Source: a virus
Strand: one strand, 5' to 3'
Virus record (IMG/VR): IMGVR_UViG_3300046694_000164
Location: 1 to 62,545 of that record
Length of the DNA: 62,545 nucleotides
A program made the position numbers and the translations under genes. Below are positions 13,791 through 59,485 of this stretch, in pieces. A model generated the notes under the pieces. It saw only the letters and a program-made list of their open reading frames with translations, was not told where the DNA came from and made no database searches. Position 1 is the stretch's first letter; the number at the start of each line of letters is the position of its first letter.

Positions 13791-13813
13791 ATGTAAACTT
13801 ACAAATTTGTCAA
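13791..13813 (-). promoter_or_regulatory. Operator-B promoter element, copy 1
   Basis: On the minus strand this reads TTGACAAATTTGTAA followed by GTTTACAT. The TTGACA box is embedded in the palindrome ACAAATTTGT (13801-13810). The same 23-base block occurs at 39203-39225 and 49129-49151. It lies about 90 bases upstream of the protease start and probably drives the leftward operon 13704-5854. A standard -10 box is not clear. Confidence 0.65.
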
Positions 13814-13831
13814 GGAAATGTGTGGACGGCG

Positions 13832-14173
13832 TTAGTTAAGCGTTGGTAAATGGCCTCGCCTGCCCTTACGTGGCCGGCGCTCTGGGCGCTGTTGAATATA
13901 CTCTTCCCGAACCATCAGCATCTCTGCTGCGATCGCTGCGGCGACAAAGGCGGCGCGAGCTTGCTCCGGATCGCGAACGCCTTCCATAGCCTCGAGGCAC
14001 ATCACTTGAGCAACGACCCACTCCTTGCCGCGGTTGTCTTCGGGCCAGCGGTAGAGCAAGCTGTGGGCAAGATCCGCAAGCGTAACGTGCCGCCGCATAG
14101 TGATACCGTTGCCGCGCTCGACGGCGACGAGGAGATCGCGGATAGGTGTTGTTTCGGCGGTATTTTCTGGCAT
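13832..14173 (-). CDS. Helical hypothetical protein
   Basis: 113 residues, almost all alpha-helical: IRDLLVAVERGNG, LADLAHSLLYRW, ARAAFVAAAIAAEMLMVREEYI, with a basic C-terminus (RPERRPRKGRRG). GGAGGTGACTG precedes the ATG. It sits alone between the lysis cassette's terminator and the operator-controlled accessory operon. No domain recognised. Confidence 0.5.
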   Translation of the reverse strand: MPENTAETTPIRDLLVAVERGNGITMRRHVTLADLAHSLLYRWPEDNRGKEWVVAQVMCLEAMEGVRDPEQARAAFVAAAIAAEMLMVREEYIQQRPERRPRKGRRGHLPTLN

Positions 14174-14229
14174 CAGTCACCTCCGGACGAATCACGTGAG
14201 TGCTTGGCGGTGGAGAGTCAAGAGGCTAA

Positions 14230-14243
14230 TTAGAAATTTCTAA
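14230..14243. promoter_or_regulatory. Perfect 14-bp palindrome TTAGAAATTTCTAA
   Basis: A perfect palindrome about 56 bases upstream of the gene at 13832-14173 (minus). It resembles operator B (ACAAATTTGT) in its central AAATTT but differs in the arms. It may be a regulator site or a weak variant operator; no second copy was seen. Confidence 0.3.
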
Positions 14244-14250
14244 AAAACAA

Positions 14251-14285
14251 AAATAGCCCCGCCACCGGTTAGGGCAGCAGGGCTT
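14251..14285 (-). terminator. Terminator after lysis cassette
   Basis: On the minus strand AGCCCTGC and GCGGGGCT form the base of a GC-rich stem, followed by TATTTTTGTTTTTT. It lies 28 bases after the stop of the coiled-coil membrane protein gene and should end leftward transcription of the lysis genes. Confidence 0.75.
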
Positions 14286-14312
14286 GGTCCGAAGATTGTA
14301 TATAATTACTGG

Positions 14313-14618
14313 TCAGCTGCGCGTCGTGCGGCTCGTGGTGCGCTCGAAAGCCCGATCGAGCCTTTCGTGGACGCTGTCGATGCGATTGCCCACACCTTCG
14401 ATCGCCCGCATGATTTGGGCGGTCTGCTCCTGCATCCCCGCCTTTGTTACGAACGTCTCGGCAGCGTGCAGTTTGTGAGCCGCAAGATCAGCAGCTACTT
14501 TTTCCGCCTTGTCTTCGGCAACCTTTACCTTGCCTTCCACACGCGCCCACACGCGCCAGCCTGCACCGGAAAGCATGATAAAGAAGCCGATTACGGCCAT
14601 TAGCTCCGCTCCGGTCAT
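14313..14618 (-). CDS. Membrane protein with one TM helix and coiled coil (holin-associated?)
   Basis: 101 residues. One N-terminal membrane helix (LMAVIGFFIMLSGAGWRVW) is followed by a long charged coiled coil (VKVAEDKAEKVAADLAAHKL, GVGNRIDSVHERLDRAF). This is the architecture of small XhlA-like or antiholin-like proteins in lysis cassettes. It overlaps the Rz1-like gene by four bases and is the last gene before the terminator. The lysis role is from position only. Confidence 0.55.
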   Translation of the reverse strand: MTGAELMAVIGFFIMLSGAGWRVWARVEGKVKVAEDKAEKVAADLAAHKLHAAETFVTKAGMQEQTAQIMRAIEGVGNRIDSVHERLDRAFERTTSRTTRS

Positions 14619-14935
14619 TTTTGCCTCACGGTCTGCTTTGGAACGGCCGTCAAGCGTCCGTCCCTGTCTAGGATAAAGTCAACCAAGGCAAGATTCCTGC
14701 GGTAGCACATGATTAGAGATGAGCGGTCAGTAATCCATAGTTTCTCAAGCCGTTCTTGTGCGAGCGGCCCGTCGCCGAGATCTACCGGAAGATTGCATTT
14801 CTTGAGGAGTTCGTCGGACGGCATGGCGATCCGTGGCGGGATCGCCGGCGTGACCTTAATGGACTTCGTTAATGCGGCGCACGCTGGGAGCACCGAGCAC
14901 AGGCTTGCGAGCATCAGGATCTTTAGCAGCTTCAC
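14615..14935 (-). CDS. Rz1-like o-spanin lipoprotein
   Basis: 106 residues. The signal peptide ends in a lipobox (CSVLPACAAL), so the mature protein would be an outer-membrane lipoprotein. The mature part has the Rz1-like pattern: proline-rich start, LLKKCNLPVDLGDGPL, then RLEKLWITDRSSLIMCYRRN. Its first 80 bases lie inside the Rz-like gene in another frame, the usual nested or overlapping arrangement of Rz/Rz1. With the i-spanin it would fuse inner and outer membranes in the last step of lysis. Confidence 0.8.
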   Translation of the reverse strand: MKLLKILMLASLCSVLPACAALTKSIKVTPAIPPRIAMPSDELLKKCNLPVDLGDGPLAQERLEKLWITDRSSLIMCYRRNLALVDFILDRDGRLTAVPKQTVRQK

Positions 14936-15227
14936 CGGCCAGCTCCTTTATTCGGGTTTCAAGTTGGGAGTTGGCAGCCTGCATCTCTGCAATCGCGATG
15001 GCCTCGCGCGCTTTGGCCGCATTGTTGGCTGCGTCCTGCCGCTCGATCTCTGCGATCTCTGCGGCCTTGTAGTCGCCAACGATCTTGTCGATGCGCGCCT
15101 GATAAGCCACAGCAGCCCGCTGGTAACCTTTGTGGTCGACGTAGGCATACGCACCAAACAGGAGGAGGATCGCGGCCAGTGAACCAACCGTCCAACGGCC
15201 GACAGGGCTTAGAAGGAAAGCGATCAT
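14856..15227 (-). CDS. Rz-like i-spanin
   Basis: 123 residues. An N-terminal signal anchor (WTVGSLAAILLLFGAYAYV) precedes a long periplasmic coiled coil (EIAEIERQDAANNAAKAREA, ANSQLETRIKELAGEA). This topology, the position directly after the holin and endolysin, and the overlap with the lipoprotein gene identify it as the inner-membrane spanin subunit. Confidence 0.8.
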   Translation of the reverse strand: MIAFLLSPVGRWTVGSLAAILLLFGAYAYVDHKGYQRAAVAYQARIDKIVGDYKAAEIAEIERQDAANNAAKAREAIAIAEMQAANSQLETRIKELAGEAAKDPDARKPVLGAPSVRRINEVH

Positions 15228-15439
15228 TTTGACCCCGTAGCCAGCTGCTTGGCGTACTGCTCAGCCGTCATCATCCAAGCCTTCACGAAGAGGCCGATGA
15301 GATTAAGCGCGCCGACAATCTTCAGTGCTTGGACTGGCGTGAAGAACACGAGCCAGTCGAAGCCGATAAGCAGCGCGACAAGCGCCGACACAAAAGCCGC
15401 CGCGTAGTTCAATGCGTTGGTTATTTTGGTGGAGTTCAT
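15224..15439 (-). CDS. Holin (two predicted TM helices)
   Basis: 71 residues from the ATG at 15439, overlapping the endolysin stop; the TTG at 15457 is rejected. Two hydrophobic segments (AAAFVSALVALLIGFDWLVF and ALKIVGALNLIGLFVKAWM) and a short polar tail fit a class II holin or pinholin. It is next to a SAR endolysin, a pairing typical for pinholins that depolarise the membrane and release the enzyme. Confidence 0.7.
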   Translation of the reverse strand: MNSTKITNALNYAAAFVSALVALLIGFDWLVFFTPVQALKIVGALNLIGLFVKAWMMTAEQYAKQLATGSK

Positions 15440-15915
15440 GCGACCCCCTGTAGGCAAAGCTTCAATTCAGCCTGCCGCCGGTTGACGAGCCCCTGCACTA
15501 CCCGGCCACCTGCCTTGTTGAATGCGGTCATGGCATGGCAGCTTTCTTTCAGCCGGTTCTCGCGTGCTAGCCGCGCGAACGTCGACTTGCAGGCTGCGCC
15601 GACGCCGACGTTGTAGGTCACAGAGATAGCGGCAGCCTGCCACTCAACCGGCTTGCGGTCGAAGTCGGCGATGCACTCGGTCAGTGGCACGTAGTAGTCG
15701 TCCATGACGCGCGTCAGAAGCTTCTCGTCGCACTCGGCCTTGGAGAACTTCATGCCCTTGCGGATGCCGAGCGTCTCGCCGTAGCAGGCCGTCCACACGC
15801 CGACGATATCGGGATAGGCGGTCAGCGACAGCCCCTCCCAAGGCTTGATCAGCGAGCCGATCGAAAGCGCGACGGCCGCAATAGCTGCGACCGCCTTCTT
15901 ATTCAGTTTTGGCAT
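15436..15915 (-). CDS. SAR endolysin, GH24 lysozyme
   Basis: 159 residues from the ATG at 15915. The N-terminus KAVAAIAAVALSIGSLI is a weakly hydrophobic signal-arrest-release segment. The catalytic E-8-D-5-T triad is visible in KPWEGLSLTAYPDIVGVWTACYG. AISVTYNVGVGAACKSTFARL and NRRQAELKLC complete the T4/P22-type lysozyme fold. It cleaves peptidoglycan glycan strands after release from the membrane. The frame extending to 15966 has no support. Confidence 0.9.
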   Translation of the reverse strand: MPKLNKKAVAAIAAVALSIGSLIKPWEGLSLTAYPDIVGVWTACYGETLGIRKGMKFSKAECDEKLLTRVMDDYYVPLTECIADFDRKPVEWQAAAISVTYNVGVGAACKSTFARLARENRLKESCHAMTAFNKAGGRVVQGLVNRRQAELKLCLQGVA

Positions 15916-16111
15916 TCTCGCCTCCGGAGGGTTGCGCCAAGAGACGTGCCGCCCACGCGCCGCCAAGCAGCGCCAGCGTCAACCACCATGGCAGGTAGTC
16001 GGACACGACCGGGACCGTGTTGAGGATGATGTCGGCCAGTGCCGCGAGCTCGAGCAGCCGCAGCGACCAAGCGCGCCGAAGCACCCGGCGAACGTCGGGG
16101 ATGAGTTTCAT
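15899..16111 (-). CDS. DUF7940-like small membrane protein
   Basis: 70 residues with two hydrophobic helices (LELAALADIILNTVPVV, LPWWLTLALLGGAWAARLL) after KLIPDVRRVLRRAWSLRL. The pattern resembles the DUF7940 family next to phage endolysins, thought to be holin-related. Its end overlaps the endolysin start by 17 bases. It could be the holin or antiholin partner of the 71-residue protein. Confidence 0.6.
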   Translation of the reverse strand: MKLIPDVRRVLRRAWSLRLLELAALADIILNTVPVVSDYLPWWLTLALLGGAWAARLLAQPSGGENAKTE

Positions 16112-16129
16112 GGGGGTGTCCTGATATGA

Positions 16130-16153
16130 AAAAGGCCCGCCGAAGCGAGCCTT
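16130..16153 (-). terminator. Terminator on minus strand
   Basis: On the minus strand AAGGCTCGC / GCGGGCCTT pair (one G-T wobble) around TTCG, followed by TTTTCAT. It follows the small membrane-protein gene at 16188-16295 and precedes the lysis genes, so lysis transcription probably depends on read-through or a local promoter. Confidence 0.65.
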
Positions 16154-16187
16154 GATGGTGGTAATTAGTTATTGAAGCGCGATTAGA

Positions 16188-16295
16188 TCACAACGTCCCG
16201 ATCGGCCCCGCGTACGGGATATAGATCTGTCCCGCGAAGAAAGCCGCCACCAACGCTGCAGCTACCAGAAAAAGCACTACCCTGCCGCCGCTCAT
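16188..16295 (-). CDS. Small membrane protein (35 aa)
   Basis: 35 residues from the ATG at 16295: SGGRVVLFLVAAALVAAFF then AGQIYIPYAGPIGTL. One membrane helix and a short periplasmic tail. AGGGGAT precedes the ATG. It is divergent from the glycosyltransferase-like gene. Function unknown. Confidence 0.45.
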   Translation of the reverse strand: MSGGRVVLFLVAAALVAAFFAGQIYIPYAGPIGTL

Positions 16296-16403
16296 GATAT
16301 CCCCTGCCAAAAACGTTGATACACTCTTAACGATACAGCCGTCGCCTTGCAAGATTACCCCTCCCGCCATAATAGGGCGATGAACAACGGAATATCTGGG
16401 CAC

Positions 16404-17984: not shown

Positions 17985-17985
17985 A

Positions 17986-37464: not shown

Positions 37465-38598
37465 TTAGGCCGTTCTCTTGAGTGAAGACGCCATATTATC
37501 GTTTGCTGCAATCAACACGCGCTTGCCTGCCTTGCGCGAATATTCCCCAGAGAAACCAGCCGATGCGCCGATGTCCGCCATATTCTCCGCAGTGGTTGCG
37601 GCCTCCAGAACATCGATATCTTTGCGTGTCATCGATGCCATGGCTTCCATCCAGCCCTCGCGCTCAATCATCTTTGAGTGCATATCCTGCCAGGCCATAG
37701 AGCCTCCGCCGGCACAGGTGGTCTTACGCATCCCAAGAAACAGGTCGGCTAGTATTTGTGTGCCTCGAGGCAGCCCATCGGGTAGCCTTTTCACGTCAGG
37801 CATGTTGGGCGTATTGGCTATTGCTTTTGCAAGCTCTGCCTTAGCCTCTTCCTTTGTGATCGGTTCGCCACGCTTCTTCTTTCGTCGGCACGGCAAATAC
37901 TGGAAACTGGCATCCTCGCCCATCAGCGCTTTTGCAAAGAAACCGTTTGTTCCTACGTGCTGTACTGTCGGGCCTGTTGGTCGCGTTGACTTATCCTTGG
38001 TGTTCAGCATCGCACCTCGCGGCAGCGTGACATTCCCCTCAATCACCTTGCCGTCAATTCCGGACATGTGGCAACGTTCCGTCTGCGAACCGTCGCTAAA
38101 CTGCAGTCTGCCAATACGGACAATGCCACCGTTCGCAATCTCAAAGTCTCCAGATACCGGCCAGGCGTGCTGCTCGCGTCCTTTGCGCTTCTTCTTGAAC
38201 TTCCCGTCCTTCAGGATTTGCGGGTCGTAATGGTAGACGAATTGCACATCGACCATGGAGCGCTCGATCGCCTCCATAGAGGGCATGATCTCGACGCGCG
38301 TCTCCTGCGCGAATCCCTCCATGGGTGGGTTGTTGTCGTTCGCTGGTTCAATCCGCCAATTCGAGCCGATTGGCGCAGGGTCTGACACATCACCATTCAG
38401 CAACGGCTGGTCTGTTGTTTCCTTGATGCCAACTGGCCTGTTCATCCAGGCAAGCAGGCCGCTGGCGAGCGTCCCAGAAATTCCATCGTGCCTCGGTGTC
38501 TCCGTCGACCATATGCGTGGAAATATCTGGCTATCGTGCTTTGGCGCCGTATTGCGCCAAGCTTCTACATCAGCGCGGTGCTGCTCTGGCGTCCTCAT
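37465..38598 (-). CDS. Unknown 377-residue phage protein
   Basis: No family recognised. The N-terminal 95 residues look disordered and contain EPANDNNPPMEGF. A central beta-rich part has VVYHYDPQ-like and RIGRLQFSDGSQTERCHMSG segments. A basic stretch (CRRKKKRGEPITKEEAKAEL) precedes a helical end (MARKD-like TRKDIDVLEAATTAENMADI) finishing VLIAANDNMASSLKRTA. It overlaps the GIY-YIG gene start by four bases and is downstream of operator-B copy 2. It could be a regulator or DNA-binding protein. Confidence 0.55.
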   Translation of the reverse strand: MRTPEQHRADVEAWRNTAPKHDSQIFPRIWSTETPRHDGISGTLASGLLAWMNRPVGIKETTDQPLLNGDVSDPAPIGSNWRIEPANDNNPPMEGFAQETRVEIMPSMEAIERSMVDVQFVYHYDPQILKDGKFKKKRKGREQHAWPVSGDFEIANGGIVRIGRLQFSDGSQTERCHMSGIDGKVIEGNVTLPRGAMLNTKDKSTRPTGPTVQHVGTNGFFAKALMGEDASFQYLPCRRKKKRGEPITKEEAKAELAKAIANTPNMPDVKRLPDGLPRGTQILADLFLGMRKTTCAGGGSMAWQDMHSKMIEREGWMEAMASMTRKDIDVLEAATTAENMADIGASAGFSGEYSRKAGKRVLIAANDNMASSLKRTA

Positions 38599-39155
38599 TC
38601 TGTTCGCTCCTTGATGATTGGCGTAAAGGCGACGTATCCGTCTGCGTTATCAACTGCGGCAGCCTCAATGACTTTATAGGCTTCATACGGGCTACACCGA
38701 AACCATTCGCCTTGCAGCCTCTTGAATGCGCGACTGGCGCCTATATGAGATGCCGACTCAACGCTTTCCGTGGTGCTAATCTCGAAAAAGAAGAACGCCC
38801 TGTGGATGAATAGCTTGTTAGGATTGCCGGTCTGAAGAGTAGCCAGCCTAAGCTGCGGGCTAGTTGCTTTTCCGATCTTCACTTCTGTTCCGGTGAAATC
38901 GGAAATGACGTAAACAAACGCTCCGCCTATTACCGGGCGAAGTTCTTTCGCCAATCTATTAAGGGGTGTCTCGCCGAATGGATGCCGGACGGATCCGCCA
39001 AGGCCAACACCATCTATATTCCCAGCGCCAACAATCCTGATCGTTCTTCTTGCTTCGGCCCTACGATTGATTATCCAGTCGTAGCCCTTCTCATCCCACA
39101 CGGAACCAGAGAATACTTTAGGCACTTGCTTCGACAGCGATGACGGTTCCGGCAT
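38595..39155 (-). CDS. GIY-YIG / T5orf172 (MUG113) domain nuclease-like protein
   Basis: 186 residues. The central FVYVISDFTGTEVKIGKATS followed by PQLRLATLQTGNPNKLFIHR is the T5orf172/MUG113 branch of GIY-YIG domains. The N-terminal 80 residues are an extra domain (DWIINRRAEARRTIRI). The first gene after operator-B copy 2, 48 bases upstream. It may act as a DNA-binding or nicking protein. Confidence 0.7.
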   Translation of the reverse strand: MPEPSSLSKQVPKVFSGSVWDEKGYDWIINRRAEARRTIRIVGAGNIDGVGLGGSVRHPFGETPLNRLAKELRPVIGGAFVYVISDFTGTEVKIGKATSPQLRLATLQTGNPNKLFIHRAFFFFEISTTESVESASHIGASRAFKRLQGEWFRCSPYEAYKVIEAAAVDNADGYVAFTPIIKERTE

Positions 39156-39202
39156 GATCCCCTCAAGGTGTGGTGGTGATTTGGTTTGGTGAACACAAGA
39201 TG

Positions 39203-39225
39203 ATGTAAACTTACAAATTTGTCAA
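39203..39225 (-). promoter_or_regulatory. Operator-B promoter element, copy 2
   Basis: Identical in 23 bases to the elements at 13791 and 49129: on the minus strand TTGACAAATTTGTAA then GTTTACAT. The palindrome ACAAATTTGT is at 39213-39222. It precedes the GIY-YIG gene by 48 bases. A strong hairpin (GGCCGC-N5-GCGGCC with GACAA/TTGTC flanks) stands immediately upstream at about 39229-39258. Confidence 0.65.
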
Positions 39226-39275: not shown

Positions 39276-39506
39276 TCAAACAGCCGTGCCGCAAGCCTTC
39301 TTGGTTGCCTGCTGCACCGTGCGCACGTAAACCCGCAGCCCATTCTGAAGGTCGGCGGAGACATGTGAGCGCTCTGCGTCGTCAAGAGCCTGCCATGCAT
39401 ACGCCTCAATGAAGCGAGACAGGCGGCAGTCCGACGAGACGACGGCTTGGGCGTTTGCGGATGAGATGGTGGCGGCCAATGCCGCGGCGATAATAACTGC
39501 TTTCAT
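39276..39506 (-). CDS. Small secreted protein
   Basis: 76 residues with a clean Sec signal peptide (KAVIIAAALAATISSANAQA) and a mature part of 56 residues with two cysteines (SSDCRLSRFIEAYAW; KKACGTAV), likely one disulphide in the periplasm. It is transcribed from the operator-B promoter 36 bases upstream. A periplasmic protein expressed under repressor control could be an envelope-directed early factor; no family known. Confidence 0.6.
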   Translation of the reverse strand: MKAVIIAAALAATISSANAQAVVSSDCRLSRFIEAYAWQALDDAERSHVSADLQNGLRVYVRTVQQATKKACGTAV

Positions 39507-39541: not shown

Positions 39542-39570
39542 AATCTAGGTGCGTTTTACAAATTTGTCAA
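39542..39570 (-). promoter_or_regulatory. Operator-B promoter, copy 3 (-35/-10 visible)
   Basis: On the minus strand TTGACA (39570-39565), a 17-base spacer and TAGATT (39547-39542). The -35 box is part of the palindrome ACAAATTTGT (39558-39567). It is the clearest sigma-70-type promoter of the operator-B set and directs the small secreted-protein gene. Confidence 0.7.
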
Positions 39571-44540: not shown

Positions 44541-44917
44541 AACGGCGCCTCGCGCAAAGCCTCCCGCACACCCTGAGCACAGCCTTCCCATGCTGCGCGC
44601 ACCAGCATTAACTGCATGAGCTCGTCATAGTGTGCTAGCTCGGTCACGCCACCATTGGCGGCGATCCACTCGCCGACGGCCTCGACGCCCTTCTCGAGCG
44701 CCTTCACTTCGTACAAGCTAATTCTGTCCAACTTCGTGAGGTCTCCTGTTGCGACGATACATGGCTTGCAGAGAAATCCTGGATCCTTTGAGCCCGGCGT
44801 GCTGCGGCCGAGTCCTATCGCGTACATCCCGCAAACTTTACAGACGGTGGGGTTGTGGTTTTCGTCAACCGTCGGTGTGAACGGCAGTATCGGGCGGCCG
44901 GTTGGGAGTTTGGTCAT
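44537..44917 (-). CDS. DUF6511-like zinc-finger phage protein
   Basis: 126 residues. VCKVCGMYAIGLGR and GFLCKPCIVATGDL form a four-cysteine zinc site; LYEVKALEKGVEAVGEWIAA followed by GGVTELAHYDELMQLMLVRA completes a pattern I associate with DUF6511 proteins next to phage methyltransferases. It overlaps both neighbouring methyltransferase genes, so it may act with them. Confidence 0.6.
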   Translation of the reverse strand: MTKLPTGRPILPFTPTVDENHNPTVCKVCGMYAIGLGRSTPGSKDPGFLCKPCIVATGDLTKLDRISLYEVKALEKGVEAVGEWIAANGGVTELAHYDELMQLMLVRAAWEGCAQGVREALREAPF

Positions 44918-45741
44918 GCTGCCACCGCGGAGGGGGTGGCTTGGGTGGGGGTGTTGTCGTTGTCACCGACTGGTGACGCGTCGAACATGCTAACCGGCTT
45001 CACCTTCTTCGGCCGGTCAACAAACATGTCACCCTGCGCATAAGCTTTCGCTATGCGGTCGCAAGCCACGTCGAAATACTTCGGATCCAGCTCAATGCCG
45101 ATAAACTTCCGGCCCATCTTGGCACACGCAACGCCAGTCGTGCCACTGCCCATGAAAGGATCTAGGATTGTCTGGCCGGGGTTGGTAAAGTCCTGCAGAA
45201 GCTCTCGCATCAGCGGGATGGGCTTTTCTGTGGGGTGACGGCCATCGCGGTCGCGCTGGTTGGTGAGGTGGGTATAGACGCCACGCTTGCCGCCTGCGTT
45301 CCATTTGGCGTGGCCGGTGCCATTCCATGCGGTGACGAAGCACTCCGCGCCCTGCCCCGGTCCCTGCCCGTTTAACTGCGGTGTCGCGTCAGGCTTAACC
45401 CACAGGCAGCCGCGCTTGTACTTCATTGGTGAGGCATTGATTGCTTCTGCCCAATATGCGACGCCTTCAATGGTGCAGAACGCGATAAACCAGCCGGTGC
45501 AGACGCGGTGGGCAGCATCTACAACTGACTGGCGGATGGTGTCGATAGAAGAGAAATCCAAGCCTTTTAGGTCTGGACCCTTATCTGCGCGGACCCGTCC
45601 GCGCAGACTATTCTTCGACGCATGCAAACTTTCTTCATAAGGCGGGTCGCTTATGACGTGATCGACAGCCTCCAACGAAGCCATAACCTCGAGGCAATCC
45701 GCATTATACAGCGTCGCATCGCCGATGCGCTCTACTCTCAT
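44914..45741 (-). CDS. DNA N6-adenine/N4-cytosine methyltransferase
   Basis: 275 residues from the ATG at 45741 (AGGAG 7 bases upstream). Catalytic motif DHVISDPPYEESLH (DPPY), target loop, HPTEKPIPLMRELLQDFTNP, and the SAM-binding motif ILDPFMGSGTTGVACAKMGR with FIGIELDPKYF. The order IV-then-I makes it a beta-class enzyme, shorter than the cell-cycle methylase CcrM and without its C-terminal domain. The C-terminus has GDNDNTPTQATPSAVAA. Confidence 0.88.
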   Translation of the reverse strand: MRVERIGDATLYNADCLEVMASLEAVDHVISDPPYEESLHASKNSLRGRVRADKGPDLKGLDFSSIDTIRQSVVDAAHRVCTGWFIAFCTIEGVAYWAEAINASPMKYKRGCLWVKPDATPQLNGQGPGQGAECFVTAWNGTGHAKWNAGGKRGVYTHLTNQRDRDGRHPTEKPIPLMRELLQDFTNPGQTILDPFMGSGTTGVACAKMGRKFIGIELDPKYFDVACDRIAKAYAQGDMFVDRPKKVKPVSMFDASPVGDNDNTPTQATPSAVAA

Positions 45742-48528: not shown

Positions 48529-49089
48529 TCAGTAGCCGCAGTCGTATTCGCCGGTATTAACCTCGAACTTGCCGTCCTTCAGGACGTAGGTGACGAAGTA
48601 GTTAGTGTCGTTCTCTTCTTCGGCCGTGTCGAAAATGACAGCCGTTAGAGCCTTCATGATGTCTGCGGACGGTTCGGCGTAAACGTGGCCGTGCTCACGG
48701 CAAAGGGCGATGTTGTCAGCGAGGGCGGTCGCATCGACGACATGGCTGCGGGTCTCGCGGTTCCACGTCTGCTCCTGCTTGATACCTTCGGCCAGTTCTT
48801 CGGGAAGTTCAAAGCCGAGATCGCCTTCGTCAAGCTCTTCTTCCTTCGCCGATTTGATGTTGACGAACATATCGGCGGAGTGTTCGCACGGCTCGCCGTC
48901 ATTGAAGCCGGGTGTCGATCCGCGTACGACGATGAGGGATACTTCGCCAGATGCGGCAAGCGCAGCAAGGAATGGCTCGATGGCCGCTTTGCGGGCCGTC
49001 TTAGCTTCTTCCTGCAGACGAGCGATGTTTTCATTGATGCCGATGATACCGGCAAGGCTGGATTGAACGACAGAATTCAGTTGGGTCAT
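48529..49089 (-). CDS. Hypothetical phage protein, 'STPGFNDGEPCEH' type
   Basis: 186 residues from the ATG at 49089, the second of two adjacent ATGs and the better placed after GAGGAG. SGEVSLIVVRGSTPGFNDGE with PCEHSADMFVNIK is a pattern I recall from several phage families. An N-terminal helix (IARLQEEAKTARKAAIEPFL) precedes it. It is the first gene after operator-B copy 4. Function unknown. Confidence 0.55.
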   Translation of the reverse strand: MTQLNSVVQSSLAGIIGINENIARLQEEAKTARKAAIEPFLAALAASGEVSLIVVRGSTPGFNDGEPCEHSADMFVNIKSAKEEELDEGDLGFELPEELAEGIKQEQTWNRETRSHVVDATALADNIALCREHGHVYAEPSADIMKALTAVIFDTAEEENDTNYFVTYVLKDGKFEVNTGEYDCGY

Positions 49090-49128
49090 CATAGTCTCCT
49101 CTTGTGGTGGTTTGGTAGTGTCACCTTT

Positions 49129-49151
49129 ATGTAAACTTACAAATTTGTCAA
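49129..49151 (-). promoter_or_regulatory. Operator-B promoter element, copy 4
   Basis: The third copy of the identical 23-base block: on the minus strand TTGACAAATTTGTAA then GTTTACAT; palindrome at 49139-49148. It stands 40 bases upstream of the 48529-49089 gene and 3 bases after the stop of the helicase gene, so it can restart transcription for the modification and replication genes to its left. Confidence 0.65.
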
Positions 49152-49153
49152 CG

Positions 49154-50905
49154 TCAAAAAGGTATGTCGTCGTCAATGTCGCTCCACCGCCCGCCGTTAT
49201 CATTGGCCGCAACCGGCACGTTGTCGTTGGCAGGACCGACGCGGTGCGCCATGACATCGGGATATTTCGGGTTCTTGGCATAATCCAACTGGATTTCTGC
49301 CGTCGACAAAACCTCATGCTGGCGCTCTAAAAATTCGATGACACTTTTCGGAAATGGCCGAGCGCCGCCGTGCGCCAGCCACCATCGATCCGCCTTCGTC
49401 TTTGCAAATCCGGTATGAGCGCAGCAAAGCCACTCGTTCACCGACTTAAGCCCGACAAGATACGTGCACTTGACAGAATCAGGCTTCCCTTCCTTCCCAG
49501 GATGATGCCGAAACGTCCTGCTATTCACTGGATACCAAGGCTTTTCTGTCGAGATGACGGGAGCGTCCGCGGCGCGCGCCGTAAGTTTCTCTTCCTCGTT
49601 TGGCGGGAAGATGTAGCCACATTTGGTGCATGTCATGACCGAGATTAGCAGGATTTCATCGCAGCCAAACTTGCCATTGATGTCTGCCTTGTCGGTCGGG
49701 CAAATCTTCTGAGGAGGCGTGCCATCACCAGAGCCGGGAGCCTTCGGTCGGATAAGATCGATTGGTCCGAATCTCGATAAATTGTTCCCATGGTCGAGCA
49801 CCAACCCGTCCGTCTTACCAGCAAACAAGCGTGTAACGCGGCCGATAATCTGAACAATAAGGCCGGGGCTTTTCGTGCTTCGATAGATGGAAATCATGTC
49901 GACGAAAGGAAAATTAGCCCCAGTTGTCAACATATTGACACTGACCAAAGCCCAGACGCGGCCAGCCCAGAAATCGGCGATGATCTTCGCATGTTCGCCT
50001 GGGTTCTTGCTGGTCAGGAGTTCGCACGTCTTGCCGTTCCTGCGGACTTCTCGGCATACCTTCTCCGCGTTCTCCTGGCTGACACAAAAGAACATGGCGG
50101 CCCGTCGATTGCCGCCTTTCGCGATGTCTTCAGCAACGCCATCGACAATAATCTTGTCGGCAGCATTCGACACTTCGCCTGGCACAAACTCGCCGCCACG
50201 TGTGTGCATGCCTTTGAGGTCGATGACTGAACTGACGTTCTTGGTCGAGATCGGCGACAAGTATCCTTGTTCGATCAGGTCAGGCAGGAAGGCCTCATAG
50301 ACGACATCATCGAACAGCTTGAACTTGGCAGGCTTAGCGACACCAGCCTCGGCGAGCGCTGCCCGCGTGGCTTCGTCCATATCGCTACCATCATCGATGT
50401 CATCGGTTAGACGGCCTGAATCAGTTCGATAATCCGTTGCGGTTGTGCCCGCAGTACGGCTTTCTGGGTTTATCTCGCGTACCTTTTTGAAGAACTTGCC
50501 GTAAAGCGTGTCGGAGTTTCGGCTGATCGCGTGCGCCTCATCGACCAGAATAAGGTCGATCGGGCCAAGTTCTTCGACTTTGTTCCAAACGGATTGAATG
50601 CCACAGAACAGCACTTGCGCATGAGCATCGCGCCGCCCTAGACCGGCAGAGTAAATTCCTGCAGGAGCAAACGGAAACAAGCCAATGAATTCTTTGAAGT
50701 TTTGAGAAACCAGAGTTTTGCTATGCGTAATGTTGAGGATACGCATATCTGGGTAGTCGGCCAGCAGCTCTTCAATAATCTTGGCAATAACCAGAGCTTT
50801 GCCGGCGCCGGTCGGAAGCACGATAAGACCGTTGCCGCCGCCTTCGGCCCAATATTTATAGAGACTGTCGATTGCCTCGCGTTGATAATCCCTAAGCTGG
50901 AGCAT
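49154..50905 (-). CDS. SF2 DEAH-box helicase
   Basis: 583 residues from the ATG at 50905 (GGGAGG upstream). Motifs: LQLRDYQREAIDSLYKYW, Walker A LPTGAGKALVIAKII, DEAH box LILVDEAHAIS, GTTATDY (motif III), and VQIIGRVTRLFAGKTDG (motif VI). A Cys pair CTKCGYIFPPNEE lies near residue 420. In the Walker A loop the usual Ser/Thr after Lys is Ala (GAGKA). Two ANDN peptides stand at the C-terminus before DIDDDIPF. Likely role in replication or recombination unwinding. Confidence 0.85.
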   Translation of the reverse strand: MLQLRDYQREAIDSLYKYWAEGGGNGLIVLPTGAGKALVIAKIIEELLADYPDMRILNITHSKTLVSQNFKEFIGLFPFAPAGIYSAGLGRRDAHAQVLFCGIQSVWNKVEELGPIDLILVDEAHAISRNSDTLYGKFFKKVREINPESRTAGTTATDYRTDSGRLTDDIDDGSDMDEATRAALAEAGVAKPAKFKLFDDVVYEAFLPDLIEQGYLSPISTKNVSSVIDLKGMHTRGGEFVPGEVSNAADKIIVDGVAEDIAKGGNRRAAMFFCVSQENAEKVCREVRRNGKTCELLTSKNPGEHAKIIADFWAGRVWALVSVNMLTTGANFPFVDMISIYRSTKSPGLIVQIIGRVTRLFAGKTDGLVLDHGNNLSRFGPIDLIRPKAPGSGDGTPPQKICPTDKADINGKFGCDEILLISVMTCTKCGYIFPPNEEEKLTARAADAPVISTEKPWYPVNSRTFRHHPGKEGKPDSVKCTYLVGLKSVNEWLCCAHTGFAKTKADRWWLAHGGARPFPKSVIEFLERQHEVLSTAEIQLDYAKNPKYPDVMAHRVGPANDNVPVAANDNGGRWSDIDDDIPF

Positions 50906-51287
50906 GGGCAACCTCCCGCAACAACCGATTATCATTCTCATGCCGCAAGCGCTGCGGCTTGCCAGCCTCATACCAAAACACCACGCGCGGCGGCTCGTGG
51001 TAGCAAGCAATCACCAATGGATCCGCATAGGTGTACCTGCGCTTAGCCTTGCGCAGCGTCGCGCCGCTATCCATGGCCGTATCGACAATAAGCAGCCGCC
51101 CAAGGTGCGATGGGCACTTGGAGCCAAACGGTATGAACGGGATGCCAAGCAGATGACTGGCATACACGGCAGCCACGGCGCCAGATCGGCCGGGACCGGT
51201 AACACTACCGATTTCGATGTCGTCAGTATCGGCGGAAAGCACTCTGGAAATGCGGCCATAGAATTCTGTTTCGGTTATGATGCGCAT
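50892..51287 (-). CDS. Phosphoribosyltransferase-like protein
   Basis: 131 residues from the ATG at 51287. GSVTGPGRSGAVAAVYASHL and the PRPP-binding loop RLLIVDTAMDSGATLRKAKR identify a type I phosphoribosyltransferase fold. The substrate is not evident; purine or orotate salvage are possible. It overlaps the helicase gene by 14 bases. ENDN occurs near the C-terminus. Confidence 0.75.
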   Translation of the reverse strand: MRIITETEFYGRISRVLSADTDDIEIGSVTGPGRSGAVAAVYASHLLGIPFIPFGSKCPSHLGRLLIVDTAMDSGATLRKAKRRYTYADPLVIACYHEPPRVVFWYEAGKPQRLRHENDNRLLREVAHAPA

Positions 51288-51808: not shown

Positions 51809-52274
51809 GCTGCCATCCTTTCGATCAACTTCTTGCGTGCGTATTGCTTACGGAACCGGAGACGCTCGTAGACGGTGCGCCCTAGGCTGACCGGGATCAC
51901 TTCACCCATCGCCTCGTCGACCACCATCTGGCCGTGGCGCATGGTTGCCAGTTCCTCCAATGCCTCAAGCAGTACGACCCGGTGCTCCTGGTTCGGCTCC
52001 AACGGAACCGAAAACGCGGCGCATTCCGGCACCACGACGCCGGTGCGCATTTCCGCGTTTCGCATCCGCTTGTAGTTGCTGGACGCAGCATCACGATCTG
52101 CGCCCAGGTCTTGAACGTCTCCATTCGGCACTGGTGGGCCTTCTCGAGCATCATTGTCACGGTGTTTTGTAGAAGCTCTTCGGCCATGCCGTGAACCATG
52201 CGCTGCGCTCTTCGGCGCAGCTGCGGTAGGTAGGCGACAAGCGCTTCGTCAAAGCCGGGTGGTCGGTCGGTCAC
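51805..52274 (-). pseudogene. Second sigma-like factor, split by a -1 frame change
   Basis: The first frame, from the GTG at 52274, reads PPGFDEALVAYLPQLRRRAQ, AEELLQNTVTMMLEKAH and FKTWAQIVML, aligning with region 2 of the neighbouring sigma-like protein. It then degenerates. In the -1 frame the sequence continues ASSNYKRMRNAEMRTG, then LLEALEELATMRHGQMVVDE and ERLRFRKQYARKKLIER, a region-4-like end. The switch point is near 52095. It may be a real mutation, a sequencing error or a programmed shift. The second frame alone (51805-52131) has an ATG at 52131. Confidence 0.6.
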
Positions 52275-53531: not shown

Positions 53532-54587
53532 CTAGATCCTCATCGGCATGAGCACGAGCGTCAGCTCGCGGAAACCGTTGGATGTGAGCACGCCAGGCGA
53601 GCCAGGCTCAGACAGCGCCACAACAACAGGGCCAGAGGGAAACACGCCGAAGACTTCGCTGACGTATTTGCTGTTGAAGCCGATATCGATCGGCTCGGCA
53701 TCGTATTCGGCCTCGACTTCATCGCTGGCCGATGTATCCGCGTTGTTGACGGACAGCGCGATGCCACCTGGCGCAATCGACAGGCGAACCGCCTTGCCCC
53801 TTTCGGAAGAGACGGTAGACACACGGTCGGCAGCCTTCATGAATGCATCACGATCGACCGTCACGAGTTTGTCGTTGGCCTGCGGGATGACGCGCTGATA
53901 ATCGGGGAACGTCCCATCGACCAGCTTGCTCGTCAGGACAAAATCGCCCGCCACAATGCGGATCTTAGCGTCGGATACCGACAAGGAAACCGTGCCTTTG
54001 GGGACGATACTGACGGTCTTGCGCGGGACGATAACGGCCGGGAAGTCTGGAACCAAGGGGCCAACATGCCGAGATAGGCGGTGTCCATCCGTGGCAACAG
54101 CAACGATATTCCCGGCCAGCGGATGGATGAAGATGCCGTTTAGATAGTAGCGCACTTCCTCGCTGGACATGGCAAACGCCACCGGCGCAAACATCGCGGC
54201 GATATCGATGTCGAATGTGGCTGTATACTGGCCCGACTTCATGTCAGGGAAGTCGGCAGCAGGAAGCGTGCTCAGCTTGAAGCGGCTCCGGCCCGACGTG
54301 ACGAGTAGCTGTCCGCCGTCCTCGGACAGAGTTACGTCTCCGCCAGTCTTCTTTGCGATGTCGGACAGCAGCTTAGCGTCAACGCAAAGGTTTCCCGACT
54401 GCTCGACATCGGCAGGAGCGGAATCGACAGCTTCAATGTCAAGGTCGGTGCCGGTGACAGTCAGCTTACCGTCCGTAGCCGTGAGCAGAAAGCTCGACAG
54501 AATTGGAATAGTCGTTCTTGCCTCGACGACACGGCCGACGTTGGTCAGCACGCGCGCGAGGTCTTGGCGGGCTATTGTTAGCTTCAC
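53532..54587 (-). CDS. dnaN: DNA polymerase III beta subunit (sliding clamp)
   Basis: 351 residues. KLTIARQDLARVLTNVGRVV-EARTTIPILSSFLL, then LLSDIAKKTGGDVTLS and ALADFPDM-like TLPAADFPDMKSG, VATDGHRLSRHVGPL and LVLMPMRI at the very end: the three-domain DnaN fold with the conserved C-terminal P-M-R. No polymerase gene is seen in the window, so the clamp probably loads host Pol III, or competes with the host clamp. Confidence 0.92.
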   Translation of the reverse strand: MKLTIARQDLARVLTNVGRVVEARTTIPILSSFLLTATDGKLTVTGTDLDIEAVDSAPADVEQSGNLCVDAKLLSDIAKKTGGDVTLSEDGGQLLVTSGRSRFKLSTLPAADFPDMKSGQYTATFDIDIAAMFAPVAFAMSSEEVRYYLNGIFIHPLAGNIVAVATDGHRLSRHVGPLVPDFPAVIVPRKTVSIVPKGTVSLSVSDAKIRIVAGDFVLTSKLVDGTFPDYQRVIPQANDKLVTVDRDAFMKAADRVSTVSSERGKAVRLSIAPGGIALSVNNADTSASDEVEAEYDAEPIDIGFNSKYVSEVFGVFPSGPVVVALSEPGSPGVLTSNGFRELTLVLMPMRI

Positions 54588-56061: not shown

Positions 56062-56069
56062 AGTTCCTC

Positions 56070-56433: not shown

Positions 56434-56613
56434 GCTGCCTCCTTCATTTCTGTGGTGGTGTCGATGATGGTGTAGATGTCGACGTGAGCCTTGGCGCATC
56501 GCTTGTTCCAGCGCCGTGAAGGCGTCGCGGTACTCTTCCGTCCCTTCGCTGGCCGCATCGAAACGGGCCGCTGCATCGACGAGATACTTCGGTAGATCGG
56601 GTGTTGGGGTCAT
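56430..56613 (-). pseudogene. Small gene with apparent +1 frame change
   Basis: From the ATG at 56613 the protein begins TPTPDLPKYLVDAAARFDAA, EGTEEYRDAFTALEQ. In that frame it then turns into a histidine-rich stretch and runs without stop into the next gene. In the +1 frame, skipping one base near 56500, it continues RCAKAHVDIYTIIDTTTEMK-EAA and stops at 56430-56432 in an ATGA overlap, exactly as expected for this operon. The annotated 147-residue fusion is therefore probably an artefact of a deletion or sequencing error. Confidence 0.5.
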
Positions 56614-56924: not shown

Positions 56925-56989
56925 AAGTCTCCTCTCGCCGTGCGGTTGGTCGCCGCACGGCTTGCTGGTGTGGTGGTTGGTGGCGTTGG

Positions 56990-58105
56990 TTAGGCGGCGC
57001 GCATTACCCAGTCTTCGACCGCGGTTTTTGCCGTCGCCAGATGCAGCCCAGTTGCTTGCCGCAACAGGCGGATTGCATCGATTTTCCTGCCGTCCATGGC
57101 AAGCCGTTGCCATTCGTGCTCATAAGCTGGCTTGTCGACCTTGGTAGAGCCGGAGAGCACGTACACGCCGAATTCCTGGCCCTTGTGGATGCCAGCGAGG
57201 CGAGCAGCTTCTTTGCCAGCTGCCGCTTCTGTGGCGTGGACGTAGGGCCGCGTGGCTGGCTTCGGCTGGCCGTTCTCGATGATGGCGACGATGGCGGTAG
57301 GTGCCGGCTGGGCGACTGTGAACTCACTGGAAAAGAAGCGCAGCCCTTCATCGAAGCCCTTGCACCACAAGTCAGCGTGGCCGTCGTCATCAATCTCGAC
57401 GATGTGCGTGATAGTGCCTACCGGGATCTGCGGGTAGTCCGTATGCGTGACGAGAACACGATCACCAACCTTGAACTTGGCCGGCGCCGCGTTGTCGTTG
57501 CTAGCCGCAACCGCAACCGCTGGTTCGTGGACCCATTCGGCGATGAGGTCGTGTTCCGATTTGAGTTCGGTCGTCCAATAGTGACCTCCTGCCGTGTACC
57601 ACAGCGTGCAGTCTTCAGCCTCACAACGAGCACCTAACGGATACTGATCGTCATGTTCGTCAATGCGAATCGGCCCGACCTTGCGACCGTCTCGCGTGCG
57701 ATAGTATTTTCCGGCTTCGATGGTGAAGGCTACCGGCTGCGCTTGCGCGGCAACTGGCATCGGCTTAAGGTCGGAAAGACTGTAGAACTCGCGGCAGGTA
57801 TTGTTGCGATAGTAAGCGAAAGCGCGATCTTTCGGCTCGACTTCCAGCAGCCAATAATCATCGCCGACATCAACGACAACGCCCTCACCCTCCACTGTAT
57901 GGTCATCGTACCGCACACGATCGCCGACTTTCGGCTGCCACTTTGTCTCGACTAGTTCGAAGCCTGCCTTGCGGGAACGCAGGTCTCCATCATTGTCGTT
58001 GAAGATGGCGAACTCTCCGTCCCTATTCAGGGTGAAAACGGCACCAACATTGAAGCCGGCACCGGCGAGCGTCATCCTGATCTGCTGTACTTTTTTGTAG
58101 CCCAT
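56990..58105 (-). CDS. Multi-barrel protein with ribosomal L7/L12 C-terminal-like end
   Basis: 371 residues from the ATG at 58105 (GGAGCTGCGTG upstream). At least three short KOW/SH3-like units are visible: KVGDRVRYDDHTVEGEGVVV, KYYRTRDGRKVGPIRIDEHD, and KVGDRVLVTHTDYPQIPVGT. The last 35 residues, RKIDAIRLLRQATGLHLATA followed by KTAVEDWV, resemble the C-terminal domain of ribosomal protein L7/L12. ASNDNAAPAK occurs in the middle. Such a fusion could bind translation factors or RNA polymerase; this is inference from sequence likeness. Confidence 0.55.
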   Translation of the reverse strand: MGYKKVQQIRMTLAGAGFNVGAVFTLNRDGEFAIFNDNDGDLRSRKAGFELVETKWQPKVGDRVRYDDHTVEGEGVVVDVGDDYWLLEVEPKDRAFAYYRNNTCREFYSLSDLKPMPVAAQAQPVAFTIEAGKYYRTRDGRKVGPIRIDEHDDQYPLGARCEAEDCTLWYTAGGHYWTTELKSEHDLIAEWVHEPAVAVAASNDNAAPAKFKVGDRVLVTHTDYPQIPVGTITHIVEIDDDGHADLWCKGFDEGLRFFSSEFTVAQPAPTAIVAIIENGQPKPATRPYVHATEAAAGKEAARLAGIHKGQEFGVYVLSGSTKVDKPAYEHEWQRLAMDGRKIDAIRLLRQATGLHLATAKTAVEDWVMRAA

Positions 58106-58404
58106 CACGCAGCTCCTTCCGTCTTGCTGTCCGGCACCAAACGAGCGCCCTTGGTGAAGTCGACCTTGATGACATTGTCGCTGGCGGTCGGCTGGTCCGC
58201 GACCTGTGGCGGATAGGCTTCCGGATCGTGCTCGATCTCGATTGCGTGCCACCAGATGGTGCTTGCGCCGTCCGCAAGCCGAACTAGATATTCAGCGCCC
58301 CACTCGCGCTGGCCGATAATCTGGCCGGTGAGGTTCGGGTTTTGCCTCGATCTGACGAGGTCGCCAAAATCGAAGTAATCGCATTCGCAGGTTGGCTCGC
58401 TCAT
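58105..58404 (-). CDS. Hypothetical protein with KOW-like start
   Basis: 99 residues. FDFGDLVRSRQNPNLTGQII, then GQREWGAEYLVRLADGASTI and WWHAIEIEHDP form an SH3/KOW-like barrel similar in style to units of the next protein. Overlaps both neighbours. It may be part of the same early regulatory module. Confidence 0.5.
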   Translation of the reverse strand: MSEPTCECDYFDFGDLVRSRQNPNLTGQIIGQREWGAEYLVRLADGASTIWWHAIEIEHDPEAYPPQVADQPTASDNVIKVDFTKGARLVPDSKTEGAA

Positions 58405-58706
58405 GCCGCCACCTTCTCGGTAGGCTGCGTCGCCGATCTTGCCAGCGAAACCGGCATCAGGCCGGACGTCGTCGAGCAGCCGCCGTTGTGCGGCATCATC
58501 TTCGTGATGCGGTCTGGGTGATTGTCGTTGGCGGCGACCAACTGGCTGGGCGGCGTGAGGCGCACGAAACGTTTGCCGCTAATATTGTAGTACGCCGTCA
58601 TAGTGCTGACGCCGAACTTATCGGCGATGTCTCGGAATGCCATGCCCGAGAGGCGCAGAGAGCGCATCTCTTGAAGCATGGAAGCAGTGATGACTTTTGG
58701 TCTCAT
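58401..58706 (-). CDS. Helix-turn-helix protein opposite repressor B (Cro position)
   Basis: 101 residues. VITASMLQEMRSLRLSGMAF, RDIADKFGVSTMTAYYNISG is a helix-turn-helix of the type in small phage regulators. The rest is disordered, with VAANDNHPDRI and a serine-rich end. It is the first leftward gene from the divergent operator-B region, the place of a Cro-like or early activator protein. Confidence 0.65.
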   Translation of the reverse strand: MRPKVITASMLQEMRSLRLSGMAFRDIADKFGVSTMTAYYNISGKRFVRLTPPSQLVAANDNHPDRITKMMPHNGGCSTTSGLMPVSLARSATQPTEKVAA

Positions 58707-58762
58707 TTGGTCTCCTCATGTGGTTGGTGTGGGCTGAGCGCCGTTGGTGCGGCGATCACGGA

Positions 58763-58826
58763 TATTGACAAATTTGTAATTCGTCGGAAGATAATGTACA
58801 CAAACCCTTTGCTCAACAAATTTGTC
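58763..58826. promoter_or_regulatory. Divergent switch B: two ACAAATTTGT operators and face-to-face promoters
   Basis: Operators at 58768-58777 and 58816-58825. Rightward promoter: TTGACA at 58765-58770 with AAGATAAT about 17-19 bases downstream, reading into the repressor-B gene. Leftward promoter (minus strand): TTGTTG inside the right operator, 17-base spacer, CATTAT, reading to the HTH gene at 58706. Each -35 box lies in an operator, so repressor B can shut off both. Confidence 0.7.
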
Positions 58827-58836
58827 AGGTGAGAAA

Positions 58837-59451
58837 TTGGCTTCCGGAAAATCTAGATTCGCTCAGATGCTTATCAACGAGCAAACCCGTCAGGGGCTGA
58901 CCGATCGCGAGGTGTCCGCCAAGTTCGATTGGCTGCAGCAGACGTTCAGCAGGTGGAAGATGGGCAGCCTGCCGCGTCCTCACATGTTCGCGTCGATCGC
59001 CAACTTTCTTCAGATAAGCACCGACATGGTGGCCGAGCTGATCGACGAGGCGACCACGTCGACCGGCAACACGAAGCTGCCGGCGGGGCTGAAAACAGCA
59101 AGCGTCTACGGTCGCGTGACGGATCGCAAAGAAGGCAAGTACGTGTTCGAGCCTTTCAATATGGGCCGAAAGCGCATCCCAGAGGGGCGCTATGCTGTGT
59201 TGGTGGATACCAAAGTAATGGAGCCCGCGTTGCTCGTGGGCACGAAGGCGTGGGCGGATCCCGGCGTCTGGCCGCAGGCTGGCAACGAGGTGATGGTGCA
59301 CGCCAAGGGCGGCGTTGCCTGGATCGGCAAGCTGGTCAGCCTGGCCGACGGCGAAGCGGTGATTTCGCAGTATGCCAGGAGCGGCAACCTTACGGTCAGG
59401 AACGTCGAAGCAATACATGTGATCGTCCTTTCCGAAAGAGTTGCCGGTTAG
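58837..59451 (+). CDS. CI-type repressor B, apparently lacking the S24 serine
   Basis: 204 residues from the TTG at 58837, four bases after AGGTGAG; a TTG at 58822 overlaps the operator. N-terminal helix-turn-helix: LINEQTRQGLTDREVSAKFD, WLQQTFSRWKMGSLP. The C-terminal domain has the S24/LexA layout (IPEGRYAVLVDTKVMEPALL ... GGVAWIGKLVS), but where self-cleaving relatives have G-x-SM-x-P it has K-VMEP, so the nucleophilic Ser is Val; the Lys is kept. It probably binds ACAAATTTGT operators and cannot self-cleave. Confidence 0.75.
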   Translation: MASGKSRFAQMLINEQTRQGLTDREVSAKFDWLQQTFSRWKMGSLPRPHMFASIANFLQISTDMVAELIDEATTSTGNTKLPAGLKTASVYGRVTDRKEGKYVFEPFNMGRKRIPEGRYAVLVDTKVMEPALLVGTKAWADPGVWPQAGNEVMVHAKGGVAWIGKLVSLADGEAVISQYARSGNLTVRNVEAIHVIVLSERVAG

Positions 59452-59473
59452 TGGGGGCTGTCAAGTAGGTTCT

Positions 59474-59485
59474 TGACAAATTTGT
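59474..59485 (+). promoter_or_regulatory. Operator-B promoter, copy 7
   Basis: TTGACA at 59474-59479 is embedded in the palindrome ACAAATTTGT at 59476-59485. Downstream sequence (GGAATGTGCGGTAAAC...) offers GTAAAC or TAAACA as a weak -10 at 17-18 bases. It would transcribe rightward into the non-coding stretch, so its product would be an RNA or a leader rather than a protein. Confidence 0.5.

Follow-up and report, generated by a model that had tools for sequence, protein, structure and literature searches.

The DNA analysed here, positions 1 to 62,545 of the IMG/VR virus record IMGVR_UViG_3300046694_000164 (62,545 nucleotides, hereafter the window), is a 16-3-like temperate rhizobial phage in which a ten-letter perfect palindrome, ACAAATTTGT (ACAA-AT-TTGT), recurs at promoters and on both sides of a repressor gene, repB, that is followed by a conserved structured RNA. 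A cro-like gene precedes leftward replication, packaging and tail genes, and an integrase lies at the far end. The repB gene (58837-59451, plus strand) encodes a 204-amino-acid repressor, a homologue of p070 of phage 16-3, with an XRE/434-type helix-turn-helix (HTH) and an S24/LexA-type C-terminal domain that lacks the catalytic Ser and Lys. The structured RNA, a proposed small RNA (sRNA), is located at 59506-59655 (plus strand) and comprises P1, P2, P3a and a P3 terminator stem plus T-run. The homologue of repressor C, the classical immunity repressor, follows at 60245-60997 (plus strand; HTH and S24 peptidase), and its operators differ from ACAAATTTGT. The cro-like HTH protein (58401-58706, minus strand), a homologue of 16-3 p072, is encoded by the first gene of the leftward early block. 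Its C-terminal motif, AANDN...MxPHNGGCSTxSGxxPVSLxR, is far more conserved than its HTH, and therefore a 61-base stretch of DNA is 87-95% identical among otherwise diverged phages.

All seven exact copies of ACAAATTTGT listed by an earlier reading of the sequence alone (the sequence-only reading) were recovered, at 13801, 39213, 39558, 49139, 58768, 58816 and 59476, against a mean of 0.04 and a maximum of 1 in 100 dinucleotide shuffles of the window, and the reversed pattern, used as a control, had no copy in the window. Because just one additional copy with a single mismatch was found (ACAAACTTGT at 177), the palindrome can be described as either exact or absent. That reading was also right that the copies lie between genes or at gene ends, that TTGACA runs across six of them (58816 has CTGACA instead), and that three, at 13801, 39213 and 49139, share an identical 23-base block, ATGTAAACTTACAAATTTGTCAA. 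Its statement that two copies flank the start of repB had to be corrected, as 58768 and 58816 are both upstream of the start at 58837 and the copy at 59476 is downstream of the stop at 59451.

Four of the sites are on leftward promoters. Operator 1 (13801-13810, minus strand) precedes the trypsin-like protease block, whose first gene is the protease gene itself (13048-13704, minus strand); its -35 element TTGACA is at 13808-13813, the spacer is 17 bp, the -10 position (13785-13790) reads CAAGGT, and the site is kept in most full-length relatives. An open reading frame with a DUF982 domain is located just upstream (13832-14173, minus strand). Operator 2 (39213-39222, minus strand; -35 at 39220-39225, -10 position at 39197-39202) precedes a T5orf172-type nuclease gene (38595-39155, minus strand; T5orf172/MUG113 domain) and the terminase/portal block. 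Operator 3 (39558-39567, minus strand; -35 at 39565-39570, -10 TAGATT at 39542-39547) adjoins the stop codon of a VRR-NUC nuclease gene and precedes a small gene (39276-39506, minus strand). Operator 4 (49139-49148, minus strand; -35 at 49146-49151, -10 position at 49123-49128) was kept in 18 of 18 genomes; the stop codon of a superfamily II helicase gene (49154-51010, minus strand) abuts it, and the next gene (48529-49092, minus strand) starts at 49092.

The other three sites surround repB. Operator 5 (58768-58777, plus strand) lies in the intergenic region between repB and the cro-like gene, with a -35 element (58765-58770) pointing at repB. Operator 6 (58816-58825, no strand assigned) is just upstream of the repB start and has no TTG flank (CTGACA leftward). 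Operator 7 (59476-59485, plus strand) forms the predicted rightward promoter of the structured RNA, with a -35 element at 59473-59478 and a -10 element GTAAAC/TAAACA at about 59496-59502. The distributed repressor regulon proposed by the sequence-only reading was thus retained for the four promoters of leftward gene blocks and for the two sites upstream of repB, but not for the seventh site, which would drive the structured RNA and neither RepB nor a protein gene.

Conservation of the sites and promoter geometry

A motif scan of the window and related phages, which the sequence-only reading had called for, recovered 4-9 exact copies of ACAAATTTGT in 14 of the 14 RepB-encoding records first tested, phage 16-3 with its seven sites included, and no copy of the reversed pattern in these records. 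In 18 genomes, 113 sites were counted, nearly all of them exact; the count includes the variants GCAAATTTGT and ACAAATTTGC, and the recurrent variant GCAAATTTGT was confined to one homologous place. Despite low DNA identity and with few exceptions, the sites of these 18 genomes fell at five common loci, namely downstream of repB, in the gap between repB and the cro-like gene, right after the helicase gene, after the VRR-NUC nuclease gene before the terminase, and before the trypsin-like protease gene; not all of these records are complete, and in a few of the longer ones a site or a gene is absent. In G008 (L117, 30558-31287) and G009 (L132, 24170-24533), three to four operator promoters form a close array in front of the terminase block. 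Phage AP-16-3 (OP484857, L143) has two extra operator promoters, at 7960 and 12743, inside the tail/structural cluster and adjoining genes that are absent from 16-3, which suggests that operators travel with inserted genes.

TTG was found on at least one side of the palindrome in 105 of the 113 sites, forming TTGACAAATTTGT. When the sites were aligned on TTGACAAATTTGT, the clearest further signal was a -10-like A and T exactly 17 bp past TTGACA: nAnnnT was present at this spacing in 55% of 89 unique sequences, whereas no other spacing from 12 to 25 exceeded 24%. In these TTGACA-17-nAnnnT promoters the palindrome covers the 3' half of the -35 element and runs on into the first part of the spacer, and a RepB dimer bound at ACAAATTTGT would therefore exclude RNA polymerase. 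Identical sites at the promoters of different transcription units, conserved in relatives, were thus found, as expected of a multi-site phage repressor regulon.

Scattered single sites in short intergenic gaps of a co-directional genome, such as the one right after the helicase stop, are also expected of stoperators, at which the repressor of cluster A mycobacteriophages halts elongation between operons. Phage L5 of cluster A has more than 20 operators and stoperators, asymmetric 13-mers that are bound by a monomer and that also occur in short intergenic spaces, where they stop elongation (PMC9283540). A reading of the palindromes as stoperators was rejected and is regarded as very improbable, because the distance of 17 bp to the -10 element is fixed across genomes, the window sites are perfect palindromes whereas stoperators are asymmetric and orientation-dependent, and the sites are few (4-9) and mostly at block starts. 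The likeness to the scattered operators of actinophages suggested by the sequence-only reading, one repressor with many identical sites genome-wide, is accordingly conceptual; unlike those of L5, the window sites are symmetric and locked to promoters.

RepB as the candidate reader of the palindrome

RepB is 57-77% identical to its homologues in 16-3-like phages, and its recognition helix, QQT[FY]SxWK, was invariant in 18 of 18 genomes, down to 49% overall identity. In the same phages the corresponding helix varies in the cro-like protein and is hypervariable in repressor C. The repressor of phage 434 reads ACAA, and the QQ at the start of the RepB helix matches it. The AlphaFold model of RepB (predicted local distance difference test score, pLDDT, 84.7) gave the lambda-186 hybrid repressor, LexA and lambda CI as best PDB matches, and in the structure comparison its N-terminal domain resembled 434 repressor (1pra). 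RepB therefore combines an N-terminal HTH with a C-terminal LexA/CI-like fold, as S24/LexA-CI repressors do. The Ser/Lys self-cleavage dyad was not found in the aligned RepB proteins, in which Ser is replaced by Val or Ile and Lys by Gly, while the C repressors keep both residues; for this reason RepB was not classed as a cleavable S24 repressor. RepB is probably non-cleavable, judging from these residues, and release of the regulon would then probably not proceed via direct RecA-stimulated cleavage. We infer another trigger, such as the end of RepB synthesis or an antirepressor.

The palindrome and RepB occurred together. Among IMG/VR records fetched by one 16-base pattern, RepB was encoded by 9 of 9 records with at least four sites and by 0 of 39 with three or fewer. 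Thirteen RepB loci from GTDB genomes were also inspected. In nine of them repB is flanked on either side by exact sites; in L151 and L153 the upstream site is exact and the downstream one is ACAAATTTGC, and L160 combines two exact upstream sites with ACAAAATTGT downstream. The only locus without an exact site, L156, encodes the altered helix QQAFNTWL and carries ACAATTTTGT. In an independent set of contigs, only three RepB contigs had 0 or 1 exact sites (G087, G099 and G102); all three encode the helix QQAFNTWL and have ACAAAATTGT and/or TGACAAA-N8-TTTGTCA at TTGACA-17-TAnnnT promoters. This coupled change of helix and operator is the best evidence, as far as sequence comparison goes, that RepB reads the palindrome.

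The palindrome might instead be read by another factor, namely the cro-like protein, repressor C, or a phage sigma factor that uses TTGACAAATTTGT as a promoter element. The cro-like gene adjoins two sites and is present in 18 of 18 genomes; a weak sigma-factor match is located in the early block (51897-52274), and 16-3-like phages have sigma-70-like genes. Three window promoters have poor -10 hexamers (CAAGGT, CATCTT and AAAGGT) and may depend on an activator or a phage sigma factor. However, the site is invariant while the HTH of the cro-like protein varies strongly and that of C is hypervariable, which disfavours both as readers, and the operators of 16-3 C are spaced otherwise (ACAA-N4/N6-TTGT). 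TTGACA-17-nAnnnT is an ordinary sigma-70 layout, for which AATTTGT in the spacer is not needed, and the altered RepB helix is found in exactly the clade with the altered sites. A reader other than RepB is therefore considered unlikely.

Besides the poor -10 hexamers, three points weigh against RepB as the reader. The covariation of helix and operator comes from one clade of four genomes (G087, G099, G102 and L156), so that one event may have been counted several times; other proteins may also differ in this group; and ACAA half-sites just 2 bp apart are an unusual geometry for a 434-like dimer. A RepB regulon with ACAAATTTGT as putative operators is nevertheless well supported by the comparisons. 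In the proposed model RepB is a lambda/LexA-type repressor that acts as a dimer; its recognition helix is 434-like, and its S24-type C-terminal domain has lost the cleavage dyad. Bound to ACAAATTTGT, it would lie over the 3' half of the -35 element and over the spacer in sigma-70-type promoters and so block RNA polymerase. The genes at the head of each block (cro-like/replication, post-helicase, pre-terminase and protease) would in this way be kept shut, or timed, by RepB, which would also regulate its own divergent promoter region and one non-coding gene (59506-59655).

The structured RNA and the leader signature

From the promoter at 59476, transcription would proceed to the right and away from repB; the conserved sequence of about 150 nucleotides that forms the structured RNA follows directly. 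The same RNA gene is present, unannotated, in phage 16-3 (DQ500118, 36880-37024, minus strand). The search of the window with Rfam 15 gave no match above the gathering threshold, only a chance sub-threshold match to a microRNA. The predicted structure consists of the P1 hairpin with a UGUGGUG loop, the P2 stem around the exposed segment GUCUCCUC, the P3a hairpin CGG-GUGGUG-CCG (with CGA/UCG, CAG/CUG and CAC/GUG stems also found), and the long P3 stem, which is followed by a T-run in most genomes and resembles an intrinsic terminator. A covariance model built from 20 sequences matched the RNA at 31 of the 31 RepB loci searched, and in an independently selected set the RNA was found in 23 of 25 RepB contigs; in the other two, RepB lies at the edge of the contig. 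A second RNA copy suggested in contig G005 (L111:7605-7719, E 7e-5) was rejected, as it is the antisense of a leader.

RNAalifold on a MAFFT alignment recovered only P1 and P3a, in which six of eight pairs were changed on both sides in some sequence. P2 and P3 were missed because their arms misalign, and therefore an arm-swap test was used, in which the 5' arm of one genome was paired with the 3' arm of another; all four helices were weakened by the swap, and the true pairing was reached in 0 of 2000 permutations. The predicted unpaired probability was 0.70 for the P1 loop, 0.75 for the P2 segment and 0.56 for the P3a loop, compared with 0.09 for the P1 stem and 0.37 overall. The RNA thus displays, all by prediction, its own promoter, a conserved structure, an intrinsic terminator and an accessible seed complementary to leaders, as expected of a trans-acting sRNA.

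Downstream of the operators, the first genes share the leader type CACCACA-AGAGGAGAC-ATG. The leader of the protease gene after operator 1 reads CACCACAGCAGAGGAGACAAGATG and that of the gene after operator 4 reads CACCACAAGAGGAGACTATG; the leader after operator 2 includes CACCACCACA, and that after operator 3 includes CACCACA and GAGGAGGC. The pattern CACCAC-N0-10-GAGGRGR had 151 matches in 12 genomes versus 1.2 expected from base shuffling, with 41 of them at most 160 nucleotides after an operator promoter and the others mostly before other phage genes. Fourteen genes of the window have the signature CACCAC...GAGGAGAC; besides the protease gene they include the genes for a DNA polymerase III beta homologue (53532-54587, minus strand; CACCAC and GAGGAGAC), which is away from any operator, and an N6/N4 DNA methyltransferase (44914-45741, minus strand; CACCACCACA and GAGGAGAT). 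A hairpin with a CCACCA loop often stands before the signature. The signature was rare in four host genomes of 5-6.7 Mb, with 6-12 matches each, mostly in the prophage-bearing contig, and it was almost confined to these phages and prophages.

When all hexamers were ranked by enrichment upstream of 284 annotated starts of 16-3, TM3_3_14B and NV1.1.1, GGAGAC, AGGAGA, CACCAC and ACCACA took ranks 1, 2, 4 and 6. These are exact reverse complements of the P2 segment (GUCUCC) and the GUGGUG loops of the RNA, and the complements of its other invariant segments (UAGUACG and UAUGGAA) showed no enrichment before the same 284 starts. The RNA and the leader signature also co-occurred across phages. Both analyses indicate that the RNA is likely a phage sRNA that pairs with many phage ribosome-binding regions.

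As the RNA is located between repB and the C gene and is directed towards the latter, it might instead act on C in cis, as a leader or attenuator, or sequester an RNA-binding protein as a decoy; the complementarity would then reflect a shared protein-binding signal. Repeated identical loops are also the layout of CsrB-type protein-titrating RNAs. However, a strong stem and a T-run close the RNA about 590 nucleotides short of C. It is unlikely to be a leader of C because other genes or kilobases separate the two in some phages: RHph_X2_25 has two opposite-strand genes in between, and G008 has a gap of more than 3 kb. A decoy would hold a copy of the leader motif, whereas the RNA holds its complement, and phages without RepB that have the signature also have, in the control region, an RNA of another layout in which all three anti-leader elements recur. 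A cis-acting or decoy function is thus rather doubtful.

Four signature-rich contigs (G067, G084, G086 and G088) have no RepB, no operator and no RNA as modelled. Their control regions have a differently ordered RNA with GUCUCCUC, a hairpin with a UGUGGUG loop, a CGG-GUGGUG-CCG hairpin (CGA/UCG in G086) and a terminator; this second layout is located at about 2582 in G067 (L288), 37930-38040 in G084 (L292), 67060-67160 in G086 (L297) and 58380-58470 in G088 (L300). A third layout was seen in L286 (G095) and L287 (G062), contigs of about 36 kb without RepB and with just one signature match. The second and third layouts were found by inspection guided by weak hits. The exact 16-mer TGTGGTGACCGTTGAT of the second layout was found, besides two known contigs, in 12 others that have neither the RNA context nor the leader signature, and these chance matches therefore serve as negative controls. 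The presence of the signature and an anti-leader RNA in phages without RepB indicates that the two go together even where the transcriptional regulator differs.

Two further points weigh against pairing with leaders: no compensatory changes were found in the intermolecular pairs, because the leader and RNA motifs are nearly invariant, and the P3a loop is only moderately unpaired in the predictions. A third is that CACCAC, beside the ribosome-binding site, could itself be a translation enhancer, as CA-rich motifs upstream of the Shine-Dalgarno sequence can be (GcvB targets). The signature would then be only an enhancer plus Shine-Dalgarno sequence, and its complementarity to an unrelated RNA would be coincidental. 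This is quite improbable, because the top leader hexamers match the invariant unpaired parts of the RNA exactly and not its other invariant parts, and because signature and RNA co-occur across phage groups, including those with rearranged RNA. The enhancer and sRNA-target ideas are moreover compatible, as the target of GcvB is itself the enhancer.

Pairing of the RNA with leaders therefore remains the preferred interpretation. The two GUGGUG loops and GUCUCC would pair in trans with CACCAC...GAGGAGAC leaders, both those of the first genes in the regulon and those of many other phage genes, most likely repressing and less likely activating translation. When RepB is low, the RNA would be produced along with the signature-bearing mRNAs; such an incoherent feed-forward circuit would restrict translation or set its timing. 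Taking repressor and RNA together, it is fairly probable that ACAAATTTGT is the RepB operator, controlling the first genes of gene blocks and a terminated structured RNA that most likely pairs with phage leaders in trans. With somewhat less confidence, we favour a phage-wide translational circuit in temperate rhizobial phages. In it a structured sRNA with two GUGGUG kissing loops and, as its anti-Shine-Dalgarno segment, GUCUCC would pair with the leaders of at least a tenth of phage genes, and RepB would switch this sRNA together with the first of its target mRNAs; phages without RepB would keep the signature and an RNA of another layout that has the same anti-leader elements.

Relation to known systems and significance

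The operators OL and OR of 16-3 repressor C, ACAA-N4-TTGT and ACAA-N6-TTGT, occur at two places only, flanking c. The window sites belong to the same phage group and share with them ACAA/TTGT half-sites over promoters and conserved gene neighbours, but they have a 2-bp spacer (ACAA-AT-TTGT), occur at 4-9 places, and go with RepB, whose 16-3 homologue p070 is annotated without a function; the window has no N4 match, and N6 matches only at 50257 and 55047. RepB is like the repressors of phage 434 and lambda (CI) and LexA in its N-terminal fold, its QQ recognition helix (434) and its LexA/CI-type C-terminal domain, and unlike them in the absence of the Ser/Lys dyad and in the use of one palindrome per promoter at scattered sites with half-sites 2 bp apart. 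The regulon thus resembles other multi-site phage repressor systems, and its sites are neither stoperators nor 16-3 C operators.

The c4 antisense RNA of P1/P7 has complementary stretches, probably in loops, that pair around a ribosome-binding site, and VpdS of phage VP882 is an Hfq-dependent RNA of about 50 nucleotides that acts in trans on phage and host mRNAs (PMC12197685). Unlike c4, which has the single target ant, the window RNA has its own putative repressor-controlled promoter and about 14 window leaders with the motif; VpdS is a trans-acting phage sRNA, as is proposed for the window RNA, but no genome-wide leader signature is described for it in PMC12197685. GcvB pairs just upstream of Shine-Dalgarno sequences, including translation-enhancing ACA motifs (PMC3879156), and NfeR1 (alpha-r14) has repeated hairpins with one invariant anti-Shine-Dalgarno motif and variable stems (PMC10746234); both differ from the window RNA in being host-encoded, in targeting host genes, and in sequence and structure. 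If the proposal holds, the RNA would work like c4 of P1, GcvB or NfeR1, yet be none of them by sequence, and its targets would be many genes of its own phage. Nothing relevant on sRNAs of phage 16-3 or its relatives was found in the literature, which was covered mostly without subscription journals, key 16-3 papers among them.

Phage 16-3 has been studied since the 1960s, and its known immunity functions are C and immX. In conclusion, the sites and repB probably constitute, on comparative grounds, a second repressor regulon, with operators invariant across phages whose C repressors are quite different, and hence a control layer that does not diversify with immunity. The comparison also brings out an undescribed structured RNA in these phages, complementary to the signature found in the leaders of many of their genes. 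These ideas are directly testable in the laboratory pair of 16-3 and S. meliloti 41 and, if they are true, one repressor-controlled sRNA would let a phage regulate its own translation genome-wide.

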